Assembly (NCBI GenBank): GCA_944385485.1 | Contig: CALWXL010000011.1 | Span: 1 to 32,396, forward strand | Direction of reading: 5' to 3' | Source: an uncultured Oscillospiraceae bacterium | Lineage (GTDB): Bacteria; Bacillota; Clostridia; Oscillospirales; Oscillospiraceae | Length of the DNA stretch: 32,396 bases | Shown: one piece after another, positions 3,250 to 11,520 of the stretch | How positions within the stretch are numbered: position 1 is the stretch's first letter | Layout of the letters: every line of letters starts with the position of its first letter | Translations under genes and position numbers: made by a program | The notes under the pieces: model-generated | Seen by the model: the letters and a program-made list of their open reading frames with translations, nothing else | Databases searched by the model: none | Told to the model about the DNA's origin: nothing

Positions 3250-3279
3250 ATGCAGTTTCCTCCTATGGTCTTTGCTGTT

Positions 3280-3308
3280 ATCCTATTCCCCCCACGCCCC
3301 CTTGTCAA
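3280..3308 (-). promoter_or_regulatory. Sigma-A promoter for cinA
   Basis: On the minus strand, TTGACA (3303-3308) is followed by a 17-bp spacer and TAGGAT (3280-3285). The -10 box lies about 30 bp before the cinA start, leaving a short 5' leader that holds the ribosome site. Confidence 0.75.
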
Positions 3309-3350
3309 TGCCCACATCTTTTCCACTTTAGTGCATCAGAAAAAAAAGGC

Positions 3351-3379
3351 TTGCATTTTCCCACTCGTTGGGATATAAT
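3351..3379 (+). promoter_or_regulatory. Sigma-A promoter for the aromatic amino acid operon
   Basis: TTGCAT (3351-3356), a 17-bp spacer and a perfect TATAAT (3374-3379). Transcription would begin near 3386. That places the leader peptide ORF, the candidate antiterminator and the attenuator terminator at the 5' end of the transcript, about 250 nt before aroF. Confidence 0.8.
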
Positions 3380-3410
3380 GACCTCACTTCATAAAGCGAG
3401 GTTTGCAGCG

Positions 3411-3506
3411 ATGACCTACACTTCCGCCCACAACTTCATGGCTTATTATGGCTTTACTCGATTTACCGGGTACGGCTATTTTGTCATGGATCAATGCGGC
3501 ATATGA
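3411..3506 (+). CDS. Phe/Tyr-rich leader peptide (31 aa) of the aromatic operon attenuator
   Basis: ATG at 3411 opens a 31-codon ORF ending in TGA at 3504-3506. Nine of the 31 codons are aromatic. Tyr codons start at 3417, 3444, 3447, 3471 and 3477, and Phe codons at 3435, 3453, 3462 and 3480. There is no Trp. Two clusters stand out: tandem Tyr-Tyr (3444-3449) and Tyr-Gly-Tyr-Phe (3471-3482). A modest ribosome site, GCGAGG, lies 9 nt before the start. The ORF sits just after a strong promoter and before an intrinsic terminator, and the first downstream gene makes aromatic amino acid precursors. By analogy with pheA/trp leaders, ribosome pausing at scarce Phe- or Tyr-tRNA would control termination. 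The peptide itself is probably not functional. The role is inferred from arrangement and composition only. Confidence 0.83.
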   Translation: MTYTSAHNFMAYYGFTRFTGYGYFVMDQCGI

Positions 3507-3577
3507 GTGAGGCATTTTGCACCCAGCTTATGGGGGCAGAATCGAACATACCGAAACGGAACGCTCATTGACGCATG
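3485..3577 (+). promoter_or_regulatory. Candidate antiterminator pairing of the aromatic attenuator
   Basis: CATGGATCAATG (3485-3496), at the end of the leader ORF, can pair with CATTGACGCATG (3566-3577). Ten of 12 positions pair: 6 bp, a 2x2 internal loop, then 4 bp. This pairing would consume the 5' arm and loop of the terminator stem (3562-3593) and prevent its formation. A ribosome reaching the stop codon at 3504 would cover 3485-3496 and allow termination. A ribosome held at the earlier aromatic codons (for example 3444-3464) would leave it free. Stalling at the last cluster (3477-3482) might still mask it partly, so the exact switch is uncertain. A second hairpin (TGCACCC/GGGGGCA, near 3518-3539) lies between the arms. 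Confidence 0.55.
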
Positions 3578-3605
3578 TGGCAGTCAATGGGCGATTTTTT
3601 ATTTT
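3562..3605 (+). terminator. Attenuator terminator upstream of aroF
   Basis: CGCTCATTGAC (3562-3572) pairs with GTCAATGGGCG (3583-3593): 11 bp with one G-U pair and a 10-nt loop. A then T6-A-T4 follow. It lies downstream of the leader ORF and 30 nt before the aroF start, so every operon transcript must read through it. The stem is strong enough to act as an intrinsic terminator. Confidence 0.88.
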
Positions 3606-3635
3606 ATCTCGCCACACTGAAAGGAAGGATTTACC

Positions 3636-4658
3636 ATGGTTATTGTTATGAAACCCTCTGCCACCCAGGATACCATCCAGGCTCTGGCCCACCAGCTGGA
3701 GACAGACCATCCGGAAGTACGGGTGAGCATCACCAAAGGCGTGGGCTGCTCCATTCTGGGTCTGGTGGGAGACACCTCCCGCATCGACCAGGATAAGATC
3801 ACCATTCACGACGACGTGGATCGGGTGATGCGGGTGCAGGAGCCTTACAAAAAGGCCAACCGCAAGTTCCACCCCGAGGACAGCGCCGTGCGGGTTGGGG
3901 ATGCCGTCATCGGTGGGGGCGGATTCACCGTCATCGCCGGGCCCTGCTCGGTGGAGAGCCGGGAGCAGATCATCGACGTGGCCCAGTCCGTGAAGGCCTC
4001 CGGAGCCTCCCTGCTGCGAGGCGGCGCCTTCAAGCCTCGCACCTCCCCCTACGCCTTCCAGGGCATGGGCACACCCGGCCTGGATCTGCTGCTGGAGGCC
4101 AAGGCAGAGACCGGACTTCCCATTGTCACCGAGCTGATGAGTCCCAAGTACTGCGAGCTGTTCGAGGAAAAGGTGGATGTGGTGCAGATCGGCGCCCGGA
4201 ACATGCAGAACTTTGATCTGCTCAAAGAGGTGGGCAAGATGTCCAAGCCCATTTTGCTCAAGCGGGGCCTGGCCAACACCTACGAGGAGTGGATCATGTC
4301 GGCTGAGTACATCATGGCTTCCGGCAATGAAAATGTCATCCTGTGTGAGCGGGGCGTGCGCACCTTTGAGACCTACACCCGCAACACCCTGGATCTGTCC
4401 GCTATCCCCGCCATCCGCCGCATGAGCCACCTGCCCATCGTGGTAGACCCCTCCCACGCCGCCGGCATGTACTGGATGGTGGAGCCTCTGGCCATGGCCG
4501 CCGCCGCTGTGGGCGCCGATGGCCTGATGATCGAAGTACACAACAACCCCGCCTGCGCTCTGTGCGACGGACAGCAGTCCCTGACCCCCGAGAAGTTCCG
4601 CCGCCTCATGGATAAGGTGACTCCCCTGGTGGAGTTGATGGGCAAGACTTTGACCTAA
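3636..4658 (+). CDS. aroF: 3-deoxy-7-phosphoheptulonate (DAHP) synthase, type I-beta with N-terminal ferredoxin-like domain
   Basis: It condenses phosphoenolpyruvate with erythrose-4-phosphate, the first committed step of the shikimate pathway, in the cytoplasm. Residues 1-~70 form the ferredoxin-like/ACT-like regulatory domain seen in the Thermotoga-type enzyme, which in that family mediates feedback by Tyr/Phe. The TIM barrel follows, with 'AGPCSVES' (metal-ligand Cys) near residue 105, 'GGAFKPRTSPYAFQG' near 128, 'RGVRTFETYTRNTLD' near 233, 'VDPSHAAG' near 271 and 'IEVHNNPA' near 299. Length of 340 aa matches the family. The start is set by GAAAGGAAGG at 3618-3627. It is the first structural gene after the Phe/Tyr attenuator, so it probably has both transcriptional and allosteric control. 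The symbol aroF is used loosely, since relatives are also called aroA or aroG. Confidence 0.97.
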   Translation: MVIVMKPSATQDTIQALAHQLETDHPEVRVSITKGVGCSILGLVGDTSRIDQDKITIHDDVDRVMRVQEPYKKANRKFHPEDSAVRVGDAVIGGGGFTVIAGPCSVESREQIIDVAQSVKASGASLLRGGAFKPRTSPYAFQGMGTPGLDLLLEAKAETGLPIVTELMSPKYCELFEEKVDVVQIGARNMQNFDLLKEVGKMSKPILLKRGLANTYEEWIMSAEYIMASGNENVILCERGVRTFETYTRNTLDLSAIPAIRRMSHLPIVVDPSHAAGMYWMVEPLAMAAAAVGADGLMIEVHNNPACALCDGQQSLTPEKFRRLMDKVTPLVELMGKTLT

Positions 4659-4686: not shown

Positions 4687-5019
4687 ATGGCCATGTTGGA
4701 ACGCACCCTCAACGGAGACTTTTACGAGGTTCTTCACACCCTGCACAATGCCATTTTGGAAGGCAGCATGTCCGCCTCCTATGAAAATGGAAACGACTAC
4801 ATGATGGGAGATACCCACTGTGCCATACGTATGTATGAACGGTACAGCGCCATGGGCAACAACCGGGTGGCCTTGTGTTTTTTGCTCACGGGTCTGGACA
4901 ACCAGCTTCACCTCACTGCCATCACCGCCGGCGGCAGCCAGGCCATGTTCTTCAAAATCAACACCTTGGGGGAGGATGCCTTCTTGGACACCCTGGCCCA
5001 AGCGCTAGACAAACTCTGA
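4687..5019 (+). CDS. Small DUF6054-like protein of unknown function inside the aromatic operon
   Basis: A 110-aa soluble protein without signal peptide or membrane segment. The sequence resembles what I recall of the DUF6054 family in Clostridia, with the central motif 'CAIRMYERYS' and the C-terminal 'AGGSQAMFFKINTLGEDAFL'. This assignment is from memory and was not searched. A GAGAGGAGC ribosome site lies about 8 nt before ATG 4687. The gene starts 28 bp after aroF and ends 15 bp before aroB, so it is co-transcribed. No catalytic motif is recognisable. Position between steps 1 and 2 of the shikimate pathway hints at a link to the pathway, but relatives need not sit there. A second ATG two codons later (4693) is also possible. 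Confidence 0.85.
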   Translation: MAMLERTLNGDFYEVLHTLHNAILEGSMSASYENGNDYMMGDTHCAIRMYERYSAMGNNRVALCFLLTGLDNQLHLTAITAGGSQAMFFKINTLGEDAFLDTLAQALDKL

Positions 5020-5034
5020 GAGGAGAATTTCCCC

Positions 5035-6096
5035 ATGCGCACCCTCACAGTCCCCCTCCCCGGACGGGAGTACAACCTGCTCATTCAATCCGGCCTGCTC
5101 CCCGGCTCCGGGGGCTACATCCGATCCCTGCTCCCCCGCTGCCGCAAGGCCGCCCTGGTCACCGACACCAACGTGGCCCCGCTGTACGGCCAAACCGTGG
5201 TGGACAGCCTCACCCAGGCGGGGTTCCAGGTGGAGACCTTCGTGGTCCCCGCCGGAGAGGCCAGCAAAAACGCCCAGCAGCTTTCCCAGCTATGGGGCGG
5301 CTTCGCCCGCTTTGGCCTGACCCGCACCGACTGCGTGGTGGCCCTGGGGGGCGGCGTCGTGGGGGATCTGGCGGGCTTTGCCGCCGCCACCATTCTGCGG
5401 GGGGTGGCCCTCATTCAGATCCCCACCACCCTGCTCTCACAGGTGGACTCCTCGGTGGGGGGCAAGGTGGCCATCGACCTGCCCGAGGGAAAGAACCTGG
5501 CAGGGGCCTTCTATCAGCCCCGGCTGGTGCTCATGGACCCCAATACCCTGAACACCCTGCCCGACGAGACCTTTGCCGACGGCATGGCGGAGGTCATCAA
5601 GTACGGATGCATTGCAGACGATGCCTTCCTGGAGTTTTTGAGCCAAAACCTCTCCCGCGCCTCCATCATGGCCCACATCGGCCAGGTGCTCTACACCTGC
5701 TGCCACATCAAGGCAGAGGTGGTAGCCGAGGACGAGCTGGACACGGGACGGCGGATGATTCTCAACTTTGGCCACACTCTGGGCCACGCCTACGAGCTGG
5801 CCGGGCACTACTCCACTTACACCCACGGCCAGGCTGTGGCCGCCGGGATGGTGCGGGCGGCTGAGCTGGGCACCGCCCTGGGGCTCACCCCCGCCCACCT
5901 GTCCGGCTCCATCGCCCGGCTGGTCTCCGCCTTCGGTCTGCCCACCGCCATTCCCTGCTCCCCGCAGGAGTATGAGGCCGCCATCGGCCTGGACAAAAAG
6001 GGGGCTGGCTCCTCCATCTCCCTCATTCTCCTGGACCGACCTGGCCACGCCGTGGCCTATCCCATTCCAAAACAGCAGCTGCTGGCCATGCTGTAA
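5035..6096 (+). CDS. aroB: 3-dehydroquinate synthase
   Basis: It converts DAHP to 3-dehydroquinate, shikimate pathway step 2, using NAD+ as a recycled cofactor and a divalent metal (Zn or Co). The 353-aa length is normal. The NAD-binding segment 'GGGVVGDLAGFAAATILRG' lies near residues 104-122, followed by 'IPTTLLSQVDSSVGGK'. 'GMAEVIKYG' near 185 and the metal-binding histidine segments 'FGHTLGHAYE' near 243 and 'THGQAVAAGM' near 263 complete the active site. GAGAGGAG lies 8-9 nt before the ATG. It is the third structural gene of the operon, with 12 bp to aroA. Confidence 0.97.
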   Translation: MRTLTVPLPGREYNLLIQSGLLPGSGGYIRSLLPRCRKAALVTDTNVAPLYGQTVVDSLTQAGFQVETFVVPAGEASKNAQQLSQLWGGFARFGLTRTDCVVALGGGVVGDLAGFAAATILRGVALIQIPTTLLSQVDSSVGGKVAIDLPEGKNLAGAFYQPRLVLMDPNTLNTLPDETFADGMAEVIKYGCIADDAFLEFLSQNLSRASIMAHIGQVLYTCCHIKAEVVAEDELDTGRRMILNFGHTLGHAYELAGHYSTYTHGQAVAAGMVRAAELGTALGLTPAHLSGSIARLVSAFGLPTAIPCSPQEYEAAIGLDKKGAGSSISLILLDRPGHAVAYPIPKQQLLAML

Positions 6097-6108
6097 CGAG
6101 GTATTTCT

Positions 6109-7335
6109 ATGAACGTCACCATTACCCCTACCACACTCCACGGCCCCGTCACCCCGCCCCCCTCCAAAAGCCAGGCCCATCGGCTCATCATTGCCGCCGC
6201 CCTGGCAGGGGGAGAGAGCGTGCTCCACAACGTGGCCCGCTCCCAGGACATTCTGGCCACCATCCGGTGCATGGAGGCCCTGGGCGCCACCTTCACCTGG
6301 TCCGGGTCCACCCTGACGGTGCAGGGCCTCACCATGAACCGCCCCGTTTCCCCACTTCCCCGCCTGGACTGCGGGGAGTCCGGCTCCACCCTGCGCTTTC
6401 TCATCCCCATCGCTCTGGCGGTGGCGGGAGGCGGGGTGTTTACCGGACAGGGACGGCTGATGGAGCGGCCCCAGAAGCCCTATTTTGACCTCTTCGATGC
6501 CAAGGGCATCTCTTACTCCCTGGAAAACGGGGTACTCACGGTCCAGGGCCAGCTTCCCGCCGGAGACTACCCCCTCCCCGGCAACGTGTCCAGCCAGTTC
6601 GTCACCGGCCTGCTGTACGCCCTGCCTCTGGTGGAGGGCACCTCCACCATCACCCTCACCTCTCCCCTGGAGTCGGAGGACTACGTGGCCATGACCCGGC
6701 AGGCTCTGACCCAGGCGGGCATCACCCTGGACGGGTACACCATTCCCGGAGGGCAGCGCTATTCCCCCATCCGGGGCAGCGTGGAGGCGGACTGGTCCCA
6801 GGCGGGCTTCTTCTACGCCGGGCTGGGGCTGGGCAATGACCTGAACATCCAAGGCCTGGACCCCCACTCTCCCCAGGGAGATCGGCGCATCGTCTCCTTC
6901 TATGAACAGCTCACCGGGCCGGAGGCAGACATCACCCTGGACGTGAGCCAGTGCCCCGACCTGGTGCCCCCTCTGGCCGCTCTGGCCGCTGGCATGGCGG
7001 GAAAGACCTGCCACATCGTGGGGGCGGCCCGGCTGCGCATCAAGGAGAGCGACCGCCTGGCCACCACCTCCCAGGTACTCACCGCCCTGGGCGCCCAGGT
7101 GGAAGAGCTCTCCGAGGGGCTGACCATTCGGGGCGTGCCCCAGTTTGCCGGGGGCGTCACCGTCCCCTGTCACAACGACCACCGCATCGCCATGATGGCG
7201 GCCATGGCCGCCACCCGGTGCGTGTCTCCCATCACCCTGACGGGGGCCCAGTGCGTGGCCAAATCCTTCCCCGACTTCTGGGAGGTCTACCAGCAGCTGG
7301 GTGGAACCATTACAAAAAGCGAGGATAACCTATGA
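6109..7335 (+). CDS. aroA: 3-phosphoshikimate 1-carboxyvinyltransferase (EPSP synthase)
   Basis: It transfers the enolpyruvyl group of PEP to shikimate-3-phosphate, pathway step 6. Of 408 residues, 'PPSKSQAHRLIIAAALAGG' near 19-37 carries the conserved Lys and Arg. 'DCGESGSTLRFLIPIAL' near 87, 'GRLMERPQ' near 118, 'RIKESDRL' near 309 and 'HNDHRIAMMAAMAAT' near 357 are the other substrate-binding segments. The segment around 'DCGESGSTLR' keeps the Gly-Glu-Ser-Gly-Ser-Thr pattern of the family. A modest GAGG ribosome site follows the aroB stop. Its stop overlaps the aroC start by 4 nt (ATGA at 7332), a sign of translational coupling. Confidence 0.97.
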   Translation: MNVTITPTTLHGPVTPPPSKSQAHRLIIAAALAGGESVLHNVARSQDILATIRCMEALGATFTWSGSTLTVQGLTMNRPVSPLPRLDCGESGSTLRFLIPIALAVAGGGVFTGQGRLMERPQKPYFDLFDAKGISYSLENGVLTVQGQLPAGDYPLPGNVSSQFVTGLLYALPLVEGTSTITLTSPLESEDYVAMTRQALTQAGITLDGYTIPGGQRYSPIRGSVEADWSQAGFFYAGLGLGNDLNIQGLDPHSPQGDRRIVSFYEQLTGPEADITLDVSQCPDLVPPLAALAAGMAGKTCHIVGAARLRIKESDRLATTSQVLTALGAQVEELSEGLTIRGVPQFAGGVTVPCHNDHRIAMMAAMAATRCVSPITLTGAQCVAKSFPDFWEVYQQLGGTITKSEDNL

Positions 7336-8378
7336 ACTATACCATTTTCGGCGAATCCCACGGCCCTGCCATCGGGGTCACCCTCACCGGAGTGCCCGCC
7401 GGGCTGGAGCTGGACTGGAATGCCATCCAAACAGACATGGCCCGCCGGGCCCCCGGCAAGTCCCCCTTAGCCACCGCCCGGAAGGAGGCCGACCAGGTGC
7501 AGGTGCTCTCCGGAGTGTTTGAGGGCAAGACCACCGGCTCCCCTCTGTGCGCCATGATTGCCAACACCGACACCCGCTCGGCCGATTACAGCCGCACTCG
7601 TGACCTGGCCCGGCCCGGCCACGCCGACTATCCCGCCCACGTCCGCTACCAGGGCTTTAACGACTACCGGGGCGGCGGACACTTCTCCGGACGGCTCACC
7701 GCCCCTCTGGTGTTTGCCGGGGCCATTGCCAAGCAGATTCTGGCCCAGCGAAACATCTATGTGGGGGCCCACATCAGCTCCATCTACGGTGTCAACGACG
7801 AGGCTCTGGAGGACTGGGACACCCTGAAGGGTGTGGCGGACAAGGAGTTTCCGGTTCTGAATGATGAGAAGGGCGCCGAGATGCAGGAGGCCATTTTGGA
7901 GGCCAAGGAAGAGCAGGACTCGGTGGGTGGGTCCATTGAGTGCGGGGTGTTCGGGCTCCCCGCCGGATACGGCTCCCCTGACTTTGGGGAGAACGCCGAG
8001 GGCATCTTCTCCCAGTACCTGTTTGCCGTCCCGGCGGTGAAGGCGGTGGCCTTCGGCGCTGGCACCGCCTTCTCCCTCATGCGGGGCTCCGAGGCCAACG
8101 ACCCCCTGTACGTGGATGAACACGGCCAGGTGGGGGCGGAGCAGAACTGTGCCGGCGGCATCAACGGCGGCATCACCAACGGCATGCCCCTGGTGTTTGA
8201 GGTGACCATGCGTCCCACCCCCTCCATCTCCCGCACCCAATTTACCATCGATATGAGCCGCATGGAAAATGCGGAGCTGACCTTACAGGGGCGGCACGAC
8301 CCCTGCGTGGTTCCCCGGGCGGTTCCTGTCATTGAAGCCGCTGCAGCCCTGGCCGCCTGCCAGCTGCTGGGAATTTGA
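7332..8378 (+). CDS. aroC: Chorismate synthase
   Basis: It converts EPSP to chorismate, the last shared step, using reduced FMN as a catalyst. The 348-aa length is at the short end of the family. 'GESHGPAIGVTLTGVPAG' opens the protein, and 'RRAPGKSPLATARKEAD' near residue 36 follows. 'RPGHADYPA', 'GGGHFSGRLTAPLVFAG' near 112 and 'RHDPCVVPRAVPVIEA' at the C-terminus are the signature regions of the FMN and phosphate site. Overlaps the end of aroA by 4 nt. After it the operon is interrupted by a 220-bp gap carrying a dispersed repeat before pheA. Confidence 0.97.
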   Translation: MNYTIFGESHGPAIGVTLTGVPAGLELDWNAIQTDMARRAPGKSPLATARKEADQVQVLSGVFEGKTTGSPLCAMIANTDTRSADYSRTRDLARPGHADYPAHVRYQGFNDYRGGGHFSGRLTAPLVFAGAIAKQILAQRNIYVGAHISSIYGVNDEALEDWDTLKGVADKEFPVLNDEKGAEMQEAILEAKEEQDSVGGSIECGVFGLPAGYGSPDFGENAEGIFSQYLFAVPAVKAVAFGAGTAFSLMRGSEANDPLYVDEHGQVGAEQNCAGGINGGITNGMPLVFEVTMRPTPSISRTQFTIDMSRMENAELTLQGRHDPCVVPRAVPVIEAAAALAACQLLGI

Positions 8379-8446
8379 TTTTTGGCCGGGACGGCGAGAG
8401 AAGTGAAGCGTGAAACATTGGACACGAACTGGAGGGCTCGACAAAA

Positions 8447-8570
8447 GGCTCCCCTGTGCAAGGGGAGCTGGCAGCCCGTAGGGCTGACTGAGGGGTTGAC
8501 CCAGGCCAGGTGACAGACAATCCCTCCGACCCGGCTAACGCCGGGCCACCTCCCTTTACACAAGGGAGGC
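8447..8570. repeat. Dispersed paired double-hairpin repeat, copy 1 (inside the aromatic operon)
   Basis: It has two ~52-nt half units in opposite orientation. Half A (8447-8498) holds the stems GCTCCCC/GGGGAGC and AGCCC/GGGCT and ends in GGGGTTG. Half B (8518-8570) begins CAATCCCTCC and holds CCCGGC/GCCGGG and CCTCCC/GGGAGG with a TTTACACAA loop. The same element is found at 16692-16815 and 26413-26535. It fills most of the 219-bp aroC-pheA gap. The remaining sequence (8379-8446) shows no gene. Transcribed copies could affect read-through or mRNA stability. Confidence 0.9.
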
Positions 8571-8597
8571 TGATTTCGAAGTTTGGAGGCCATTCCC

Positions 8598-9755
8598 ATG
8601 GAAGAATTGCAGCAGTATAGAGAAGAAATCGACCGCATTGACCGCCAAATGGTGGAGCTGTTCCGCCAGCGCATGGCCGTCACCGCCCAGGTGGGCCAGT
8701 ACAAGCTGGAGCGTGGCATCCCCGTGTTGGACGCCGTGCGGGAGCGGCAGGTATTGCAGGACAAGGCCCGGCTGGTGGACGGGGACCTGCGCCCCGGCGT
8801 CACCACCCTGTTTCAGACCCTCATGTCCATCTCCCGCCGCCAACAGCGGGATCTGACCCGGGAACGGGCGGACAATCCCGGCTTGCCCCGGTTTGTCCAG
8901 GCCCTGTCCGGGGTACGCACCCCGGTGGAACACCCTCGGGTGGTGTTCCAGGGCGTGGGCGGCGCATACAGTGAACAGGCCTGTGTCAACTTCTTCGGCG
9001 AAGAGGTCCAGGCCACCGGGCTGCCCCAGTTTGAGGATGCTTTCGTGGCCCTGAAGGAGGGCAAGGCGGACTACGCCGTGCTCCCCATTGAAAACAGCTC
9101 CACCGGAGCCATCCGCCAGATCTACGACCTGCTGGCCCAATACGATTTCTTCCTGGTGGGTGAGACCACGGTAAAGGTGGACCACTGCCTCATGGCTCTG
9201 CCTGGGGCCACCATGGACACCATCACCCACATCTACTCCCACGAGCAGGGCCTGCTGCAAAGCGCCAAGTTCTTAAGCCAGCATCCCACCTGGAAACAGG
9301 TCCCCCAGTGGGACACCGCTGGCTCGGCCCAGATGGTGGCCGCCAGCGGAGACCTAACCCGGGCGGCGCTGTGCTCGGCCCGGGCCGCCAAGCTCTACGG
9401 GCTGAACATCCTGGCCTGCCCCACCAACGACAACCCCCACAACACCACCCGCTTTGTGGTGGTCTCCCCCCGCATGGAGCTGCGGGATGGTGCGGACAAG
9501 ATCAGTACCGTCTTTCTCCTCCCCCACGAAGCCGGCTCTCTCCACGAGATTCTCACCATTTTCGCCGTCCACGGGCTGAACATGGTCAAGCTGGAGTCCC
9601 GGCCCCTGCCCCGGCACAGCTGGGAGTACATGTTCTTTTTGGAGTTCACCGGAAACCTCAATACCCCGGAGATCGCCGACGTGCTCCACGAACTGTCCCA
9701 AACCACCGGAGACTTCCGGGTTTTGGGCAACTTTGTGTCTAATTTGGAGGAATAA
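8598..9755 (+). CDS. pheA: Bifunctional chorismate mutase/prephenate dehydratase (P-protein) with ACT domain
   Basis: It turns chorismate into prephenate and then phenylpyruvate, the committed branch to phenylalanine. Residues 1-~85 form an AroQ-class chorismate mutase helix bundle ('YREEIDRIDRQMVELFRQR', with 'YKLERGIPVLDAVRE'). The prephenate dehydratase domain spans ~110-290 with 'GVGGAYSEQA', 'LPIENSSTGAI' and the catalytic 'NTTRFVVVS'. The C-terminal ACT domain has 'EAGSLHEIL' and 'ESRP', the site of Phe feedback in the family. The start is ATG 8598, 8 nt after GGAGG (8585-8589). An upstream in-frame TTG at 8583 overlaps that ribosome site and is not used. It ends 2 bp before the aroK-aroQ fusion. 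Both feedback and the operon attenuator would respond to phenylalanine. Confidence 0.96.
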   Translation: MEELQQYREEIDRIDRQMVELFRQRMAVTAQVGQYKLERGIPVLDAVRERQVLQDKARLVDGDLRPGVTTLFQTLMSISRRQQRDLTRERADNPGLPRFVQALSGVRTPVEHPRVVFQGVGGAYSEQACVNFFGEEVQATGLPQFEDAFVALKEGKADYAVLPIENSSTGAIRQIYDLLAQYDFFLVGETTVKVDHCLMALPGATMDTITHIYSHEQGLLQSAKFLSQHPTWKQVPQWDTAGSAQMVAASGDLTRAALCSARAAKLYGLNILACPTNDNPHNTTRFVVVSPRMELRDGADKISTVFLLPHEAGSLHEILTIFAVHGLNMVKLESRPLPRHSWEYMFFLEFTGNLNTPEIADVLHELSQTTGDFRVLGNFVSNLEE

Positions 9756-9757
9756 CC

Positions 9758-10687
9758 ATGAAGAACATTATCCTCATTGGTATGATGGGCTGTGGAAAAA
9801 CCACCGCCGGACGTCTTTTGGCCCAGCAGCTGGGGCGTCCCTTTGTGGACTGTGACGAGCTCATGGAGGGACATACCGGGCGGACCATCTCGGAAATCTT
9901 TGCCCAGGATGGAGAGCGGGGCTTCCGCTCTCTGGAGAGCCAAGTGCTGGAACAGCTCAGCAACCAAGAGGGTCTTGTCATCGCCACCGGAGGCGGGGCA
10001 GTGCTCTCCCGAAACAATGTGGTCTCCCTGCGCCGCAACGGCATTTTGGTCTTTCTGGACCGTCCCATTGAGGAGATCTGTGCCACGCTGGACACCAAGG
10101 ACCGCCCCCTGGCCCAGGACGGGCACCAGGCCTTTGTGGCCCGGCACAACCACCGGATGCCCCACTATCTCACCGCCGCCGACGTGGTCATCCACGACTT
10201 TTCCACACCGGAGGAGACGGTTGCGGAAATTCTGGAGAAAATCTCCGAGCTGGGCAAGAAGTTTCTCATCATCAACGGCCCCAACCTGAACCTGCTGGGC
10301 AAGCGCAACCTGGGGCTGTACAACCATGAGAGCTACGCCTCCCTGTGCGCCATGATTCAGCGGTACGCCACCGAACACAACTCCACCGCCACCTGTTTCC
10401 AATCCAATCACGAGGGCGCCATCATCGACCAGATTCACGCCGCCGACGGGGTGTATGATGCCATCGTCATCAACCCCGGCGCCTACGCCCATTACAGCTA
10501 TGCCATTGCAGAGGCCATCCAAGGGGTGGATATTCCCGCCTTTGAGGTACATATCGGCAACGTCCACGCCCGGGAGCCCTATCGCTCCGGGTCTGTCACC
10601 GCCGAGGCCTGTGTGGGCCAGATCTACGGTCTGGGCTTCGAGGGTTACCTGCGGGCCATGGACTATTTCCTCAAAGGAGGGCAATAA
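9758..10687 (+). CDS. aroK-aroQ: Fused shikimate kinase - type II 3-dehydroquinate dehydratase
   Basis: This is a single 309-aa reading frame that joins two pathway enzymes. Residues 1-~165 are shikimate kinase (step 5): Walker A 'GMMGCGKTTAGRLLA' near residue 8, 'FVDCDELME' near 28, 'ERGFRSLESQVL' near 53, 'ATGGGAVL' near 75 and the lid region 'TKDRPLAQDG'. Residues ~168-309 are a compact type II dehydroquinase (step 3): 'IINGPNLNLLGKRNLGLYN' (catalytic Arg/Tyr region), 'SNHEGAIIDQIHAA' near 210, 'INPGAYAHYSYAIAEA' near 233 and 'EVHIGNVHAREPYRSGSV' near 264. No stop or shine site separates the halves, and each keeps its full set of motifs. AroE, the enzyme of step 4 that links these two reactions, starts 2 bp downstream. 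The fusion would join steps 3 and 5 around it. Confidence 0.95.
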   Translation: MKNIILIGMMGCGKTTAGRLLAQQLGRPFVDCDELMEGHTGRTISEIFAQDGERGFRSLESQVLEQLSNQEGLVIATGGGAVLSRNNVVSLRRNGILVFLDRPIEEICATLDTKDRPLAQDGHQAFVARHNHRMPHYLTAADVVIHDFSTPEETVAEILEKISELGKKFLIINGPNLNLLGKRNLGLYNHESYASLCAMIQRYATEHNSTATCFQSNHEGAIIDQIHAADGVYDAIVINPGAYAHYSYAIAEAIQGVDIPAFEVHIGNVHAREPYRSGSVTAEACVGQIYGLGFEGYLRAMDYFLKGGQ

Positions 10688-10689
10688 CG

Positions 10690-11520
10690 ATGCTGCAAGT
10701 CATTGGAGATCCCATCGCTCACTCCAAATCCCCCATCATCCAGACCACCATGCTGGACTATCTGGGTCTGGACATCCCCTATACGCCCCACCTGGTGAAA
10801 AAGGGGGATGTGGCCCAGTATCTGGCCTTTGCTGCGGCCAACCAGGTCACCGGTTTCAATTCCACCATGCCCCACAAGGAGGACCTGGTGCCCCTGATGG
10901 ATGAACTGGGGGAGGAAGTGCAGCGGTATGGAGCGGTCAACACCGTCTGTCTGCGGGACGGGAAATGGGTGGGACACAACACCGATGGGGACGGCTGCCT
11001 GGAATCCCTGGTCTATTCCGGCATGTGGCCGGCCCGGCAAGTGGTGCTGCTGGGGGCGGGAGGCGCCGCCCGGGCGGTGGCCCTGCGCCTGGCCCAGGCG
11101 GGAGCGGAGCGCATCTGGGTGTGCAACCGCACCCTGTCCAAGGCCCAGCAGCTGTGCCAGTTGGACCCCACCGGGGTCCTGGCCCCCGCAGGGTTTGACC
11201 TCGATACCCTGGCCCGGCTGTGCAGCCAGTCCCAGCTGGTCATCAACTGCACCAACCTGGGCATGAACGACTGCCCCCACCAGTTTGAGGACTTCTCCTT
11301 CCTGGATGTCCTGCCCCGGGATGCCGGGGTGATGGACCTGATCTATTACCCCGCCCAGACCCAACTGCTCCAGCAGGCCCAGGCCCGGGGACTGAACACC
11401 TGCAACGGCCTGCCCATGCTGGTGTATCAGGCCATCTTCTCTCTGGAGTATTTTTTGAACCGCTCCCTGCCCCGCGGCGAGCTGGCCAAGGCGGTGTTTG
11501 CCCGGCTGGCACAGGTTTAG
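10690..11520 (+). CDS. aroE: Shikimate dehydrogenase (NADP+)
   Basis: It reduces 3-dehydroshikimate to shikimate, pathway step 4. In 276 residues it shows the substrate segment 'GDPIAHSKSPIIQ' at the N-terminus, 'NSTMPHKEDLVPLMD' near 57 with the catalytic Lys, and 'GAVNTV' and 'GHNTDGDG' near 78-100. The Rossmann glycine loop 'LLGAGGAARAVALRLAQAG' lies near 119, and 'NGLPMLVYQ' near the C-terminus. Its AAAGGAGG ribosome site lies inside the end of the upstream fused gene, and only 2 bp separate the two. It is the last gene of the operon, 44 bp before a long terminator. Confidence 0.97.
   Translation: MLQVIGDPIAHSKSPIIQTTMLDYLGLDIPYTPHLVKKGDVAQYLAFAAANQVTGFNSTMPHKEDLVPLMDELGEEVQRYGAVNTVCLRDGKWVGHNTDGDGCLESLVYSGMWPARQVVLLGAGGAARAVALRLAQAGAERIWVCNRTLSKAQQLCQLDPTGVLAPAGFDLDTLARLCSQSQLVINCTNLGMNDCPHQFEDFSFLDVLPRDAGVMDLIYYPAQTQLLQQAQARGLNTCNGLPMLVYQAIFSLEYFLNRSLPRGELAKAVFARLAQV

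Follow-up and report, generated by a model that had tools for sequence, protein, structure and literature searches.

A probable leader-peptide attenuator with Phe and Tyr codons ahead of the aroF operon in Oscillospiraceae

The aroF operon and its leader region

The window, i.e., the whole 32,396-nt stretch of DNA analyzed here, belongs to contig 11 of an assembly from an uncultured Oscillospiraceae bacterium (1.77 Mb, 119 contigs, 86% complete). It holds an aromatic amino acid operon headed by aroF and, between a promoter-like site and aroF, a compact leader region with a short open reading frame (ORF) and several potential RNA structures:

3351..3379, + strand: promoter read in the sequence, with a -35-like TTGCAT (3351-3356), a 17-nt spacer and a -10 TATAAT (3374-3379)
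3398..3401, + strand: GAGG, probable ribosome-binding site read in the sequence, 9 nt 5' of the leader ATG at 3411
3411..3506, + strand: leader ORF MTYTSAHNFMAYYGFTRFTGYGYFVMDQCGI, 31 codons, stop TGA at 3504-3506
3450..3477, + strand: SL1, hairpin in the ORF and candidate transcription pause signal, GGCUUUACUCG-AUUUAC-CGGGUACGGCU, then AUUUUGUCAU|G with the step at 3487/3488; -10.8 kcal/mol
3494..3509, + strand: predicted antiterminator 5' strand, AUGCG (3494-3498), CA (3500-3501) and AUGAGUG (3503-3509), which holds the leader stop codon
3514..3542, + strand: SL2, hairpin between both antiterminator strands, from a fold of 3513-3545 at -13.2 kcal/mol and also present in a longer fold
3562..3576, + strand: predicted antiterminator 3' strand, i.e., the terminator 5' arm and first loop bases, CGCUCAUUGAC then GCAU
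3562..3607, + strand: intrinsic terminator, 11-bp stem (3562-3572/3583-3593) and tail ATTTTTTATTTTAT (A-T6-A-T4); fold at -17.9 kcal/mol
3636..4658, + strand: aroF1, DAHP synthase (NF006421, 493.9 bits), with DAHP_synth_1 and ferredoxin-like domains
4687..11520, + strand: rest of the operon by family searches, i.e., DUF6054 protein, aroB, aroA, aroC, pheA, aroK-aroQ fusion and aroE

The operon leads as far as phenylpyruvate, its pheA being a chorismate mutase-prephenate dehydratase, and no aminotransferase for the last step was identified among the genes searched. Of the 23 relatives examined for it, 22 have pheA after aroF, and the remaining one, L041, is a contig of only 4126 bp.

An earlier note made from the sequence alone had proposed a sigma-A promoter, a 31-codon leader ORF rich in Phe and Tyr codons, an 11-bp terminator with a T-rich tail before aroF, and an aromatic operon behind it, and each of these landmarks was recovered. 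The promoter-like TTGCAT-N17-TATAAT is readable at 3351-3379, and TTGC[AT]-N17-19-TATAAT-like sites stand 5' of the leader in 56 of the 64 leaders with enough sequence; a consensus promoter scan of the window did not return the window's TTGCAT-17-TATAAT site. The ORF at 3411-3506 contains four Phe and five Tyr codons, i.e., 9 of 31, and no Trp codon; these codons are scattered, not set in one long run, and the last aromatic one is Phe24 at 3480-3482. The terminator is present at 3562-3593, with stem arms CGCTCATTGAC and GTCAATGGGCG, and aroF at 3636 heads the aroF-to-aroE genes, pheA included. In 14 large ORFs of the window, Phe and Tyr together make up 6.3% of codons; against this background, 9 in 31 corresponds to a binomial P of 8.7e-5, and 0 of the 4544 stretches of 31 aa in the same ORFs reach this number. 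Among window ORFs of 20-60 aa, 3 of 210 reach 23% Phe plus Tyr.

Conservation of the leader among relatives

A search with the 31-aa peptide was positive for 28 of the 42 same-genus genomes, with the best match located just 5' of aroF in all 28. Twelve of the remaining 14 have aroF1, four with a leader missed by the search (L209, L213, L214 and L218) and eight without, so that the leader is retained at 32/40 same-genus aroF1 loci and lost or altered at 8/40. When these eight were read individually, five ran from a promoter through a short 5' UTR into aroF, one had a terminator only and two had a different leader region. Loci L207, L208, L210, L211 and L215 of the genus look like natural deletions of the attenuator. 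Named holders of the leader include Pseudoflavonifractor capillosus An386a (L031), Flavonifractor plautii ATCC 29863 (L044) and Candidatus Enterenecus avicola (L033).

We evaluated the reading frame across a non-redundant set of 66 leaders, picked for a CTCGATTTA-like motif; 65 of them were testable. Frame 0 displayed an open core with an upstream ATG in 65/65 leaders, compared to 3 and 6 for the other two frames, indicating that the frame is not there by chance. Since 27 of the tested leaders had been fetched by the peptide, we repeated the count on the other 38, with a similar outcome (38 vs. 1 and 5).

The two parts of the ORF differ in how they are conserved. Leader codons before the SL1 region displayed pN/pS ratios of 0.40 in the window clade and 0.67 in the rest of the genus, while codons -3 to +9 around CGA-TTT displayed nonsynonymous divergence in excess of synonymous (pN/pS of 3.0 and 1.36, respectively), an excess that stayed when four anchor codons were left out (0.138/0.054 and 0.124/0.083). 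This points to a front part kept as peptide and a core kept more as RNA. A second reading frame through SL1, suggested by the same excess in frame 0, was rejected, with mostly no start or an early stop. CGA-TTT-A was found in 28/28 same-genus leaders from the peptide search; its CGA-TTT part is also invariant in the 37-leader divergence set, there as a consequence of choosing that set by the CGATTTA motif.

SL1, absent from the earlier note and found here at 3450-3477, has the core fold GGCUGGACUCG-AUUUAC-CGGGUUCGGCU in relatives. Across 33 of them, 87.1% of cells are paired and one pair is compensatory, occurring in G-C, G-U and U-A forms; sliding the pairing by -1 gave a slightly higher covariation score (0.137 vs. 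0.124) but only 59% of cells paired. The tenth nucleotide after SL1 and the next one form a U|G step, with U in 61/66 and G in 65/66 leaders, and this step sits inside a codon with a variable first base (ATG/GTG/TTG). The pause of the his leader is hairpin-stabilized, with a characteristic spacing and a pyrimidine-G step, and both the distance from SL1 to the U|G step and the step itself resemble it. More generally, nascent RNA hairpins are able to prolong transcription pauses (PMC6336406). The constraint on the SL1-region codons, exerted on RNA more than on peptide, suggests an RNA polymerase pause, with the U|G step 10 nt past SL1 as the candidate site.

Beyond the genus, a covariance model of the SL1 core built from 33 sequences (R1) was run on 300 family genomes and matched 64 at E ≤ 0.1, with 53 matches at E ≤ 0.005. 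Among 52 matches examined (G162 was left out), 48 were located on the same strand 5' of aroF, one 5' of a fused aroK-aroE gene, and three (L197, L200 and L203) before neither aroF nor another aromatic gene. The leader before the aroK-aroE gene (L195 in G319, MKLSVRFSYYRGFGWARFTGAGALS) has its own terminator, so that the element is not confined to a single operon of the shikimate pathway. L204 (G102), one of the 48, carries a more aromatic leader ORF, MSIRTFTAAYYYFYFSFIYFLDKANLSMLQTGYS, with a run of Phe/Tyr codons, no CGATTTA core and a terminator thereafter; its aroF is 59% identical. At L197, in a genome of 1.3 Mb (G318), a leader-like stretch CCARFTGGGFLAMDAKRQ stands in frame and without a terminator before a gene reading like ribonuclease J, and is perhaps a relic. 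We also searched 394 genomes of the order, many of which were in the family set as well, and obtained one match below E 1e-4 outside the family, L174 (G642, family f23). Its leader MRVSHAKRFYYYFSLRFMRAFLAWKRIDGCVSS includes the hairpin GCCUGCG-AUUUAU-GCGGGC, then UUUUUUGGCGU|G (U6), then a GCGGAGC...GCTCCGC-T6 terminator, and an aroF 62% identical to that of the window starts 298 nt past the leader end. The element is either older than the family or has moved out of it. The weaker order matches (L175-L186) had no aroF nearby.

The terminator is strongly supported by covariation. In 18 leaders (17 distinct), 97.7% of cells are paired over 13 pairs, three of which show compensatory double changes, and the covariation score was reached by 0/500 shuffles, while slid versions paired at most 41% of cells. 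A scoring scan, run without a null, located a terminator in 66/66 leaders.

For the antiterminator, the pairing put forward by the earlier note (3485-3496 with 3566-3577) forms in the window but involves only 63.7% of cells in 17 distinct relatives, i.e., the level of shuffles, and it was rejected for want of conservation. In a fold from SL1 to the terminator 3' arm, the window pairs AUGCG (3494-3498) with CGCAU (3572-3576), CA (3500-3501) with UG (3569-3570), and AUGAGUG (3503-3509) with CGCUCAU (3562-3568). The first and the last of these stretches make up the conserved antiterminator, with 12 pairs counted and 90.3% of cells paired in 17 distinct leaders, and the pairing of 3500-3501 with 3569-3570 is an addition seen in the window's own fold. 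At least eight pairs were found in 59 of 60 folded leaders, L190 being the exception; six of the 66 (L159, L165, L188, L192, L193 and L196) were left out of this count, their core motif being missing. Across all 66 leaders, cognate duplexes were more stable than swapped ones (-18.5 vs. -15.6 kcal/mol, permutation P about 1e-4), with the cognate partner at a median rank of 14.5 of 66, and only 31/66 leaders reached z < -2 against mononucleotide-shuffled upstream sequence. In the 18 nearest leaders (17 distinct), the covariation score was reached by 87/500 shuffles and only two pairs show double changes; one pair in this group goes from C-G to U-A in five sequences. This scarcity of covariation is attributable to the invariant core.

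A second isozyme operon with a Tyr-rich leader

Next to aroF1, 32 of 42 same-genus genomes carry a second DAHP synthase gene, aroF2, whose product is 57-65% identical to the window AroF. It is followed in 6/6 loci with ORFs read by a gene beginning MKKILVVGLGLIGG-like, which we call tyrA on the basis of best NCBIfam matches to prephenate dehydrogenases, under the curated cut-offs. We took the aroF2 loci of 31 of the 32 genomes (G026 was left out), and a script detected a Tyr-rich leader 5' of aroF2 in 30 of them, counting L224 on a correct-strand ORF read separately; the 31st, L277, is cut by the contig end. A typical leader reads MTSRNYGYGYYRYYDSGVLSCP. A terminator follows in 26/26 leaders scanned, out of 29 aligned, in a scan run without a null. 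The leader also contains a hairpin, CCGCUAU-N4-AUAGCGG, followed in most cases by UUUG and UCAU|G, which is nearly invariant in the genus and carries no covariation signal. An antiterminator folds in most of these leaders, yet cognate pairing was no better than non-cognate (P = 0.61). Searches with Rfam families returned no T-box or other match at the aroF2 and tyrA loci.

A model of the Tyr-leader hairpin (R2), also run on 300 family genomes, matched 47 at E ≤ 0.05. In the 30 R2 loci returned, aroF (58-67% identical) was downstream in 30/30, tyrA lay within the locus in 28/30 and a Tyr-rich ORF was detected by script in 27/30. Within a collection of ten named genomes, R2 was found in six, including F. 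plautii and excluding P. capillosus An386a and E. avicola.

The codons of the aroF1 leader differ with the presence of aroF2. The latter was not found in seven window-clade genomes, the window genome (G000) being incomplete, nor in G006, and in seven of these eight genomes tyrA was located behind a short 5' UTR with no leader seen. The aroF1 leaders of genomes without aroF2 (n = 8) have no Trp codon and on average 3.5 Tyr and 4.1 Phe codons, compared to exactly one Trp and on average 1.04 Tyr and 5.1 Phe codons for genomes with aroF2 (n = 23); G008, 64% complete, was left out of this comparison. The AroF tree places the window clade as the sister of G012 (support 99/94), a genome with aroF2, while G006 branches off on its own. 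The data thus hold at most two independent events, and rank-test P values overstate the codon shift.

These patterns would fit a two-channel aromatic sensor made of leader peptides only, an idea we hold tentatively and at a little short of even odds. Specifically, aroF1...pheA would answer to a Phe(+Trp) leader and aroF2-tyrA to a Tyr leader, each of the two containing an in-ORF hairpin, then a U-rich stretch and a conserved U|G pause step. With the loss of aroF2 and the accompanying Tyr leader, in the window clade and separately in G006, the aroF1 leader would have been re-tuned, with the Trp codon going out and Tyr codons coming in, to yield a joint Phe/Tyr sensor.

Proposed mechanism, alternatives and related systems

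We interpret the window leader, with a probability of about 0.88, as a ribosome-mediated transcription attenuator that matches the shikimate-to-phenylpyruvate operon to the charging of tRNA-Phe and tRNA-Tyr, and in most relatives of tRNA-Trp as well. In this gut bacterium of the Flavonifractor/Pseudoflavonifractor group, a ribosome on a tiny Phe/Tyr-rich peptide appears to decide the transcription of an aromatic operon. RNA polymerase, having transcribed SL1, would probably pause 10 nt beyond it, which would give a ribosome time to initiate on the leader ORF and draw level with the polymerase. With charged Phe and Tyr tRNAs, this ribosome would reach the stop codon and, from its presumed position there, cover the antiterminator 5' strand, so that the terminator at 3562-3593 would form and transcription would end before aroF. 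If it stalled on a Phe or Tyr codon, the last being Phe24, the strand at ~3494-3509 would be free to pair with the terminator 5' arm and loop, and aroF would be transcribed. A ribosome footprint reaches about 12 nt past the A site, and the Phe24 codon (3480-3482) is located 11 nt 5' of the first antiterminator base: a ribosome stalled at this or an earlier control codon would leave almost all of the strand accessible, and one that has arrived at the stop codon would mask it. We infer the pausing, the ribosome positions and a response to amino acid supply.

A leader-peptide attenuator can be expected to combine a short leader ORF rich in end-product codons, an intrinsic terminator before the first structural gene, and an antiterminator that excludes this terminator. 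At the window locus, the putative leader has 9/31 Phe/Tyr codons and a frame kept in 65/65 leaders, and the terminator before aroF covaries. The predicted antiterminator excludes it by pairing; its near-group covariation is weak, and the stop codon lies inside its 5' strand in the window and not in all relatives. In most leaders this strand is found ~40-60 nt past the SL1 anchor, while the stop codon ranges from +36 to +90 nt, so that a ribosome halting there would, in some relatives, fall short of the strand or end up well beyond it; the attenuation model fits least neatly at this point. Equilibrium folds of the two states, which differ in length, have -37.4 kcal/mol for the terminator and -32.4 kcal/mol for the antiterminator. 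With the terminator the more stable, the switch would have to be kinetic, the antiterminator forming first and holding briefly.

Other readings of the locus can be weighed against the same data. SL1, with its constant AUUUA loop, might bind a ligand or a protein and shift the terminator balance, leaving the ORF incidental. Such a riboswitch or protein-binding RNA would explain why codons -3 to +9 are conserved as RNA over peptide (3.0 and 1.36, also without anchor codons) and why CGA-TTT-A occurs in 28/28 same-genus leaders found by peptide, but not why the frame is kept in 65/65 leaders, why codons before SL1 are constrained at the peptide level, or why codon content matches what the operon makes (Tyr at aroF2-tyrA) and differs where aroF2 is lost, and we consider it improbable. 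A nascent peptide can also act by itself, as in TnaC, which stalls the ribosome with tryptophan, and a conserved peptide (R-F, G-[YF]-F) could likewise arrest the ribosome on sensing a free metabolite. Arg-Phe in 28/28 same-genus leaders and Gly at codon +6 in 37/37 leaders, a set picked by CGATTTA and hence with Arg-Phe by choice, would be in line with arrest. However, the same codons also keep their synonymous sites, as explained by pairing and the loop, adjacent residues vary freely (F/A/Y/S/T at +5), and L218 has Arg-Ser in place of Arg-Phe, making peptide arrest marginally less probable still.

A T-box sensing uncharged tRNA-Phe or tRNA-Tyr would suit bacteria in which T-boxes are common, with matches in 20/20 relatives searched and ten in the window's own genome. 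Of 11 other Clostridia loci, one (L101) has a T-box 5' of aroF. For the window aroF a T-box is refuted at the sequence level and retains a very small probability, as no Rfam family matched 3250-3700 even at E ≤ 5 and the T-box model (RF00230) had no match in the whole window at gathering score. Just as improbable is a chance ORF before a plain terminator: small ORFs are common and a few in the window (3/210 of 20-60 aa) reach 23% Phe plus Tyr, but frame, position, structure and gene neighborhood are conserved across the family, which refutes chance. Comparison between genomes supports the reading frame, the terminator, the predicted antiterminator, the hairpin and the codon bias, and ribosome-controlled attenuation through Phe/Tyr codons, as the earlier note had read the locus, is supported by frame, terminator covariation, cognate antiterminator and the parallel Tyr leader. 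The conserved ORF and compensatory changes that it had proposed to look for in relatives were largely found, i.e., frame 0 in 65/65 vs. 3 and 6, terminator covariation, a cognate antiterminator at P about 1e-4 with little covariation in the near group, and a Tyr leader on aroF2-tyrA.

Attenuators of enteric pheA/pheST, trp and his combine control codons, a nearby hairpin, an antiterminator and a terminator ahead of an operon for the sensed amino acid, and the window has the same control-codon, hairpin, antiterminator and terminator layout. It differs from these leaders in that its Phe/Tyr(/Trp) codons are scattered, the hairpin lies wholly in the ORF, the antiterminator encloses SL2, and the leader heads the common pathway, not only a terminal branch; pheL, for instance, has a long run of Phe codons. 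In E. coli, aroF-tyrA is under TyrR and pheA under pheL, so that a DAHP synthase isozyme likewise travels with tyrA and the Phe and Tyr branches are controlled separately, whereas in the present system leader peptides seem to provide both controls, with no repressor in the model.

In Firmicutes, leader-peptide attenuators with His codons have been predicted for hisZ and a hisS paralogue in bacilli (PMC2965389) and for his leaders in the Bacillus cereus group, some Eubacteriales and Erysipelotrichales, Clostridia included (PMC9413887). These are predictions of the same kind, made for other families, in which runs of His codons precede his genes or hisS. The ilv-leu leader of Staphylococcus aureus, also a Firmicute attenuator, is backed by genetic evidence, and its codons are Leu (and Ile) for the branched-chain pathway (PMC5794164). 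Close by description, which is the basis of this comparison, is the uORFC-13-1 motif of Acholeplasma aroF, a candidate uORF with Phe codon(s) for which attenuation was proposed as a prediction: like the window leader, it stands directly 5' of aroF, has Phe codons and is followed by a terminator (PMC8632094). Its 24 sequences are all from Acholeplasma or environmental, and the passage describing it mentions an earlier hypothesis of attenuation at E. coli aroF and no Tyr leader, second isozyme or antiterminator (PMC8632094). The view of the earlier note that such a system is not well described accordingly holds in part: the kind was already predicted or shown in Firmicutes, while for the present aroF family no report was found. 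Our literature search, with subscription papers and supplements outside its scope, returned no report of an aroF leader in Oscillospiraceae or of the Phe/Tyr isozyme pairing. The kind is thus known and the member new, i.e., an aroF leader family in Oscillospiraceae with an unusual isozyme pairing.

Oscillospirales are bacteria with many T-boxes, and to these the present data add a leader-peptide attenuator that is found across a family and supported by comparison. Control of the pathway's first step appears to be divided between two isozymes through the codon content of two tiny peptides. With naturally leaderless relatives and others whose leader is re-tuned, specificity and its evolution become directly testable, with F. 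plautii ATCC 29863 (both leaders) and P. capillosus An386a (Phe/Tyr leader, no Tyr-leader match) at hand.

Some further observations concern the window genome and the operon itself. Nine of the ten T-box matches in G000 were fetched (L227-L235), and several stand before genes reading like valS, leuA, glyS, ilvB, cysS and transporters, and none before the aroF operon. The DUF6054 protein is encoded at 4687-5019, between aroF and aroB, and 7 of the 23 relatives examined have a homologue in this position. A single ORF of 309 aa at 9758-10684 encodes a fusion of shikimate kinase (aroK) with type II dehydroquinase (aroQ). Finally, the 200-nt gap between aroC and pheA (8379-8582) contains palindromic GCTCCCCTGTGCAAGGGGAGC ... 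CCTCCCTTTACACAAGGGAGG and looks like an interspersed repeat element in the operon.
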